The notes beneath the pieces are model-generated. The model was not told the DNA's origin and made no database searches. It saw only the letters and a program-made list of their open reading frames with translations. Made by a program: the position numbers and the translations under genes. A DNA stretch of 38,454 nt from Gemmatimonadales bacterium (GTDB lineage Bacteria; Gemmatimonadota; Glassbacteria; GWA2-58-10): the NCBI GenBank assembly GCA_024278175.1, contig JAJRTS010000076.1, positions 1-38,454 of the forward strand, given 5' to 3'. Below, one piece after another: positions 14,183 through 15,214 of this stretch (position 1 is the first letter of the stretch; each line of letters opens with the position of its first letter).

Positions 14183-14451
14183 GGAAATGCCCTTTTGGGT
14201 AAAGTTGGCCGTATCCGGTACTGATTGAATCTACAAAGCGCTGAGCGAAATGTGAATTGTTTTGACGGTGTACGGGTCCGGGGGGAAGTTCACTGCCGGT
14301 CATTGATGGAAGCTTACGTTATGCCGTGCGCTCTGAAAAAAGTGAAACCATTTTGTGACAACGCGTGTCTTATTGTACAGAAGGAGCTGAACAGGGATGA
14401 TGGGAAAAGAGGTGAAACATGCGCGGACAACTTTCTAACATGGAGGCAACA

Positions 14452-14541
14452 ATGAGCGCACGCGAATATTATCAGCTTATCGGACAGGTGGCGGGCAGCG
14501 TGATGATCTATTTCGCCCTTGTGGGCCTGATGCTGGCCTGA
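14452..14541 (+). CDS. 29-aa membrane microprotein
   Basis: Small gene with a strong GGAGG six bases before its ATG (14441-14445). The predicted peptide starts MSAREYYQLIGQ and continues as a single hydrophobic helix (VAGSVMIYFALVGLMLA) to the C-terminus, so it would sit in the inner membrane with a short soluble N-terminus. Third-position G/C content looks like that of the host genes, which supports translation. Its start overlaps the stop of a longer frame upstream (stop TGA 14453-14455, possible start ATG 14321). That 44-codon frame has four cysteines but atypical codon use. The gene is followed after seven bases by a possible pseudoknot and then a strong terminator. Function unknown. Confidence 0.5.
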   Translation: MSAREYYQLIGQVAGSVMIYFALVGLMLA

Positions 14542-14548
14542 ACACAAT

Positions 14549-14620
14549 CCGGCCCGGCCCGTCGTAAGCAGCGGCGGACCTCCTGAGCACACACCGGGCC
14601 GGTTGAGATAACTCAGGAGG
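14549..14620 (+). ncRNA. Candidate pseudoknot RNA in the 3' region of the microprotein transcript
   Basis: Two perfect 9-bp helices are interleaved. CCGGCCCGG (14549-14557) pairs with CCGGGCCGG (14594-14602). CCTCCTGAG (14579-14587) pairs with CTCAGGAGG (14612-14620). Because the second helix starts in the loop of the first and closes downstream of it, the arrangement is an H-type pseudoknot, or two mutually exclusive hairpins. Connectors are 21, 6 (CACACA) and 9 bases. It lies between the 29-aa gene and a 12-bp-stem terminator. I do not recognise it as a known riboswitch. It could be a structured 3' UTR, a small RNA or a regulatory switch. Confidence 0.4.
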
Positions 14621-14637
14621 GTCTCCTTTCAGCCCTG

Positions 14638-14677
14638 GGGGGCCGCTCATACCGGTGAGCGGCCCCCTGTTTGTTTT
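14638..14677 (+). terminator. Strong terminator after microprotein/pseudoknot unit
   Basis: 12-bp perfect stem GGGGGCCGCTCA / TGAGCGGCCCCC with loop TACCGG, followed by TGTTTGTTTT. It ends the short transcription unit that carries the 29-aa gene. Confidence 0.88.
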
Positions 14678-14871: not shown

Positions 14872-14920
14872 CTATATTGTTTTAGTACTTATTTTTTATT
14901 TCGATTAAGGTATGCAGCGA

Positions 14921-15214
14921 ATGGTTGACGCGTTTGATGATATTCTGTTCAGTGGTCATGCACTTCGCAGGATGTTTCAGCGTGGAATAATCAGGGAACA
15001 GGTTAAAGGCGTTTTGAGTCACGGGGAAACGATCGCGGATTATCCTGATGATTCACCTTACCCCAGCAGGCTGATACTTGGTTTCGTGGATTCGATGCCG
15101 TTGCATGTAATATTTGCCGAGGATAGAGATTTGAAAACGGGAATCATTGTAACGGCTTACATCCCGGATGTCTCACTATGGGGAGATGATTTTAGACGCA
15201 GGAGAGAAACATGA
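14921..15214 (+). CDS. DUF4258 protein, probable toxin of a type II toxin-antitoxin pair
   Basis: 97-aa protein of the DUF4258 family. The pattern FSGHALRRMFQRGI (His and basic residues in the first helix), then GETIADYPDDSPYPSRLILG, then PLHVIFAEDRD and a C-terminal beta strand, is that of RelE/HigB-like small RNase folds. It overlaps the next gene by four bases (ATGA), and that gene encodes a YgiT-type zinc-finger protein, the usual partner. ATG 14912 is one base after an AAGG. I prefer ATG 14921, which leaves ten bases of spacing. Codon use is AT-richer than in neighbours, consistent with acquisition by transfer. Toxicity is inferred from the family arrangement, not shown. Confidence 0.82.
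   Translation: MVDAFDDILFSGHALRRMFQRGIIREQVKGVLSHGETIADYPDDSPYPSRLILGFVDSMPLHVIFAEDRDLKTGIIVTAYIPDVSLWGDDFRRRRET

Follow-up and report, generated by a model that had tools for sequence, protein, structure and literature searches.

What kind of genetic unit lies at positions 14321-14677 of a Gemmatimonadales contig? The window, meaning the whole 38,454-nt stretch of DNA that was analyzed, is contig C65 of its assembly, and an initial annotation had proposed at this site an unrecognised small transcription unit, made up of a microprotein, a pseudoknot-capable 3' UTR, and a terminator. Comparative data support that proposal, and we put at roughly 80% the probability that the locus is a microprotein gene of ECF type whose 3' region contains a conserved pseudoknot element. 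The promoter family, the peptide family, their terminators, and the conserved helices and tail of the RNA element can all be read from sequence comparison. A second genome of the genus, G001 (hereafter, the congener), carries the unit in the corresponding position, adjoining the orthologous divergent histidine kinase gene, and the conservation of the unit rests on these two sequences; the unit was not found beside the histidine kinase orthologs of three other genera. The kinase gene itself is preceded by a sigma-70-like promoter, TTCACA-N17-TAGATT, at 14228-14256 (-), which is kept in the congener and recognizable 5' of the ortholog in G002. On the other side, at 14912-15214 (+), lies a gene for a DUF4258 protein, which in the congener is about 3 kb away and not adjacent; the ORF 3' of this gene starts MKCVICKQGQ and, we assume, resembles a YgiT-type zinc-finger antitoxin.

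The 29-aa ORF with a GGAGG leader is present at 14452-14541 (+), with its Shine-Dalgarno sequence at 14442-14446, and encodes MSAREYYQLIGQVAGSVMIYFALVGLMLA, a predicted single-helix membrane microprotein. The leader is kept as GGAGGCA in the congener, and GGAG- or GGAGG-like sites occur at the same place in relatives. Homologs were first found with a profile built from the window and G001 sequences, which picked out short ORFs from further genera in the bacterial family; these homologs, of 29-31 aa, are present in G001, G002, G003, and G004, together with a second copy in G000, and there are several paralogs per genome. Their loci share one anatomy, namely a promoter, a Shine-Dalgarno sequence, a peptide of 29-31 aa containing a single hydrophobic stretch, and a terminator. 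In an alignment of nine members (29-31 columns), Tyr20 is invariant while being encoded by synonymous codons, and Phe21 and Glu5 are nearly invariant. Hydropathy maxima of 1.6-2.4 over 18 residues predict one hydrophobic helix in every member. Across eight members of 29-30 aa, differences at the three codon positions number 417/247/394, the second position changing least, and the ortholog pair L100/L101 has a dN of 0.20 and a dS of 0.82. When the nine-member profile was run over 395 genomes of the phylum, strong matches were confined to this bacterial family, with one member added (G002 C69, E 7.5e-7). By homology and codon pattern, the peptide belongs to a previously undescribed microprotein family whose members have 29-31 aa and a single helix.

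The promoter is shared as well. At 14337-14372 (+), an A-rich stretch is followed by a -35 element TGAAACC (14343-14349), a 17-nt spacer, and a -10 element GTCTTA (14367-14372), and transcription of the microprotein gene would start near 14379. With a -35 of TGAAAC or similar, a spacing of 16-18 nt, and a GTC-type -10, the site is assigned by consensus to the ECF sigma class, and this TGAAACC-N17-GTCTTA is the sole site of its kind in the window. TGAAACC-N17 or 18-GTC recurs 53-82 nt 5' of the start codon in the first eight family genes compared, a ninth gene (L118) has a TGAAACC-type promoter too (nine of nine), and the tenth member, L155, has the near-match TGGAACC-N17-GTC. A stricter regulon scan of six genomes of the bacterial family, using the pattern with a GTCWWA -10, returned 21 sites, versus 2 for the reversed control. 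Most genes 3' of these sites encode small membrane peptides, which are 29-45 aa long and usually carry Y-F in the helix; the same promoter type also precedes DUF4097 protein genes and orthologous outer membrane efflux (OEP/TolC-like) genes in G000 and G001. Two of the sites, L109 and L124, are probably chance matches. Tandem arrangements were also seen: two near-identical ECF-type promoters 78 bp apart (L130; G001 C55, 9379 and 9457, -) lie 5' of a DUF4097 gene, and at L133 (G004 C143, 4438 and 4765, +) each promoter is paired with a separate ORF for a small membrane peptide (40 aa in one case, 45 aa in the other). SigW-type regulons offer a useful comparison, the SigW consensus being TGAAAC-N16,17-CGTA (PMC2375139). 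The -35 TGAAAC, the spacing, and a GT-containing -10 are held in common, whereas the -10 here is GTC(T/A)(T/A)A, microproteins are the commonest targets, and no sigma factor gene was found beside the promoter sites examined. A 44-codon four-cysteine frame also exists in the window, with its start upstream of the promoter. As a gene, this frame is refuted by its overlap with the promoter and by its different sequence in the congener, where it runs on into the microprotein.

What sets this copy of the gene apart is its 3' UTR. The perfect 12-bp terminator stem described in the initial annotation was confirmed as part of an intrinsic terminator at 14636-14677 (+), in which 14638-14649 pairs with 14656-14667 ahead of a T-rich tail, and its 23-nt core is identical in the congener. 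Among other family genes in which a terminator was recognised (none was for L122), it lies 15-38 nt 3' of the stop codon; in the window and its G001 ortholog the pseudoknot element comes in between and stretches the distance to 94-95 nt. Within the family, a conserved 3' UTR capable of forming a pseudoknot is a gain of one copy in a single genus. No Rfam family matched the unit above its gathering score. On the opposite strand of the terminator hairpin (14625-14669, -), the best sub-threshold match, to M23, scored 30.2 bits, where the gathering score is 41.2, and recurs weakly in the congener.

Both interleaved 9-bp helices that had been noted are exact. P1 joins 14549-14557 to 14594-14602 (+; CCGGCCCGG/CCGGGCCGG), and P2, which would form a pseudoknot with it, joins 14579-14587 to 14612-14620 (+; CCTCCTGAG/CTCAGGAGG); an inner hairpin, P1a, pairs 14559-14565 with 14571-14577 (+). 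In the congener, all nine P1 pairs are unchanged, with both arms identical, and eight of the nine P2 pairs are kept, one U-A having become U-G and the end pair being lost. P1a remains paired despite one two-sided and two one-sided changes. Identity between the two genomes is 100% in the P1 arms and the P2 5' arm, 78% in the P2 3' arm, 93% in the tail (taken over 14621-14634), 88% in the terminator, 77% in the ORF, and 54% in the leader, falling to 43% and 33% in loops L1 and L2. Counting all pair cells in the two sequences, 98.6% are paired, versus at most 53% with the partners slid, and in the pseudoknot region the real alignment outperforms its column-shuffled versions in folding (z -4.9). 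Both helices are kept, with little covariation. With two sequences and a P1 that never varies, conservation of the pseudoknot rests on conserved strands rather than on compensatory change; the pair-count shuffle control is uninformative at this sample size, and covariation is not claimed. Run over 298 genomes of the phylum, the RNA model R1 gave only the two known strong matches, the rest being at chance level. Pattern scans for the pseudoknot gave two apparently unrelated matches in the genome collection, none in plasmids and phages, and, with a loose pattern, 10 stretches in viral contigs that are raw pattern matches. Stop-codon readthrough aided by the downstream pseudoknot was considered and rejected; the extension ends after one codon in the congener.

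The possible function of the element turns on the tail that follows it. P2 includes an AGGAGG strand that had been suggested as a ribosome site to be hidden or exposed, and this reading is rejected, since no ATG or GTG lies at a usable distance after it in either genome. What is conserved beside AGGAGG is instead an anti-Shine-Dalgarno-like strand, UCUCCUUUCAGCC (14622-14634, +), identical in the congener, complementary to SD-like sequence, and a candidate seed. AGGAGG is able to pair with CCUCCUGAG, in P2, or with the adjacent UCUCCU; with AGGAGG engaged in P2, the knot would leave UCUCCUUUCAGCC free for base pairing. With P2 formed, the whole tail is predicted to be unpaired in the congener; in the window sequence, the part predicted to be unpaired begins at the fifth base. 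The 3' end may either be stabilised or give rise to an ECF-dependent sRNA that would pair with Shine-Dalgarno regions. Together with a stabilised 3' end, an sRNA is the likeliest role that we can name for the 3' UTR, and we propose it tentatively, at clearly less than even odds. CcaF1 and CcsR of Rhodobacter are stress-controlled sRNAs linked to a 3' UTR or a small ORF. The small ORF, the stress-type control, and a C/U-rich, SD-complementary strand in the 3' UTR are points of likeness; here, unlike there, the strands are held by a two-stem pseudoknot, and the sRNA is a candidate. The element may instead be a stabiliser only, with P1, P2, and the GC-rich terminator as a barrier to 3' exonucleases and no sRNA acting in trans; its placement between stop codon and terminator would suit this. 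A search for conserved sites complementary to the tail yielded one shared candidate, GGCTGAAAGGGGA, which in both genomes lies 5' of the same sugar isomerase-like gene (near position 1500 of the reverse strand in L051 and L056) and is complementary with one G-U. This site overlaps the gene's SD region and also encodes the end of the upstream gene, so its conservation is explainable by coding constraint. The lack of a convincing conserved target fits a stabiliser; however, a stabiliser has no need of a single-stranded tail identical in both genomes, and we regard this explanation as a serious one that nevertheless falls somewhat short of an even chance.

As for the peptide, the proposed sequence of events is that a monocistronic gene would be transcribed from the ECF-type promoter by a sigma factor responding to envelope stress, and that its product would be inserted in the cytoplasmic membrane, where the conserved Tyr-Phe face of the helix may bind a membrane complex. 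In doing so, it might serve a transporter as an accessory of the AcrZ type. Several small proteins with a single helix, AcrZ among them, are accessories of membrane transporters (PMC7267776), and AcrZ is, like our peptide, a small one-helix membrane protein. The promoter type is common to outer membrane efflux channel genes, and from this shared promoter type binding to an RND transporter may be envisaged. By contrast with AcrZ, the microprotein is shorter and has several paralogs per genome, and searches of Pfam, NCBIfam, and PDB sequences gave it no match, in the AcrZ family or any other. An accessory role is a real possibility on which we would not bet at evens. A different function would be that of a stress-induced, membrane-active peptide of the TisB or Fst sort, i.e., the type I toxin-antitoxin kind, with the structured 3' UTR controlling translation or stability. 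Its size, single helix, structured mRNA, and multiple paralogs are consistent with such a toxin; yet no antisense RNA gene was found, the UTRs of most paralogs are short and simple, and the promoter is common to channel and DUF4097 genes, which suggests an envelope programme. We consider a toxin unlikely.

Whether the knot forms at all must also be weighed, for P1 could fold by itself as an ordinary hairpin, the complementarity in P2 being a chance inverted repeat. Apart from P1 and P2, no two perfect helices of at least 9 bp within a span of up to 100 nt interleave on the + strand of the window, and at least one such pair arose in 9.5% of 200 whole-window dinucleotide shuffles, so the window sequence by itself is suggestive and does not settle the matter; in local 95-nt shuffles, the pair appeared in 0 of 3000. 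Computed energies for P2 alone are -15.7 kcal/mol (window) and -12.2 (congener), to which the remaining fold contributes -31.8 and -29.1 kcal/mol, respectively. Once each sum has been reduced by a pseudoknot penalty, which we assume to be about 8 kcal/mol, the knot comes out slightly ahead of the nested fold of the window (-36.3); in the congener it roughly equals the nested fold (-34.8) and is not clearly better, and nested folds of similar energy there leave room for doubt. It is conservation that decides in favor of a real element, both helices having stayed in position as the loops around them drifted, and we regard a chance repeat as quite unlikely.

Finally, it is very improbable that the ORF is untranslated and the unit a noncoding RNA, a reading that draws on the window/G001 pair (changes of 8/7/6 by codon position, dN 0.31 and dS 0.25, versus about 0.15-0.18 and about 0.8 for three neighbouring genes, with no amino-acid conservation beyond chance in a permutation test and no purifying selection on the peptide beyond the nucleotide level within that pair) but is opposed by a peptide family that spans genera with a coding-type codon pattern and by an ORF whose conserved RNA fold is no better than column shuffles. 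An early interpretation of the peptide as noncoding, taken from the statistics of that pair, was overturned by the cross-genus family.

The microprotein family with its shared promoter, which was absent from the initial annotation, is the stronger finding relative to the RNA element. Proteins as small as these, with some 30 residues, are difficult to detect and even more difficult to assign, and a promoter, peptide, and terminator that recur together across genera of one bacterial family provide a testable regulon with a clear residue motif (E5, Y20, F21). That one copy carries an additional pseudoknot offers a natural comparison of the same type of gene with and without an RNA element. In its boldest form, and here we are doubtful, the ECF-type regulon would consist chiefly of single-helix microproteins (29-45 aa, mostly with the Y-F motif) acting as undescribed envelope-stress effectors, one gene of which may be dual-function, encoding both a peptide and a pseudoknot-switched anti-Shine-Dalgarno sRNA.
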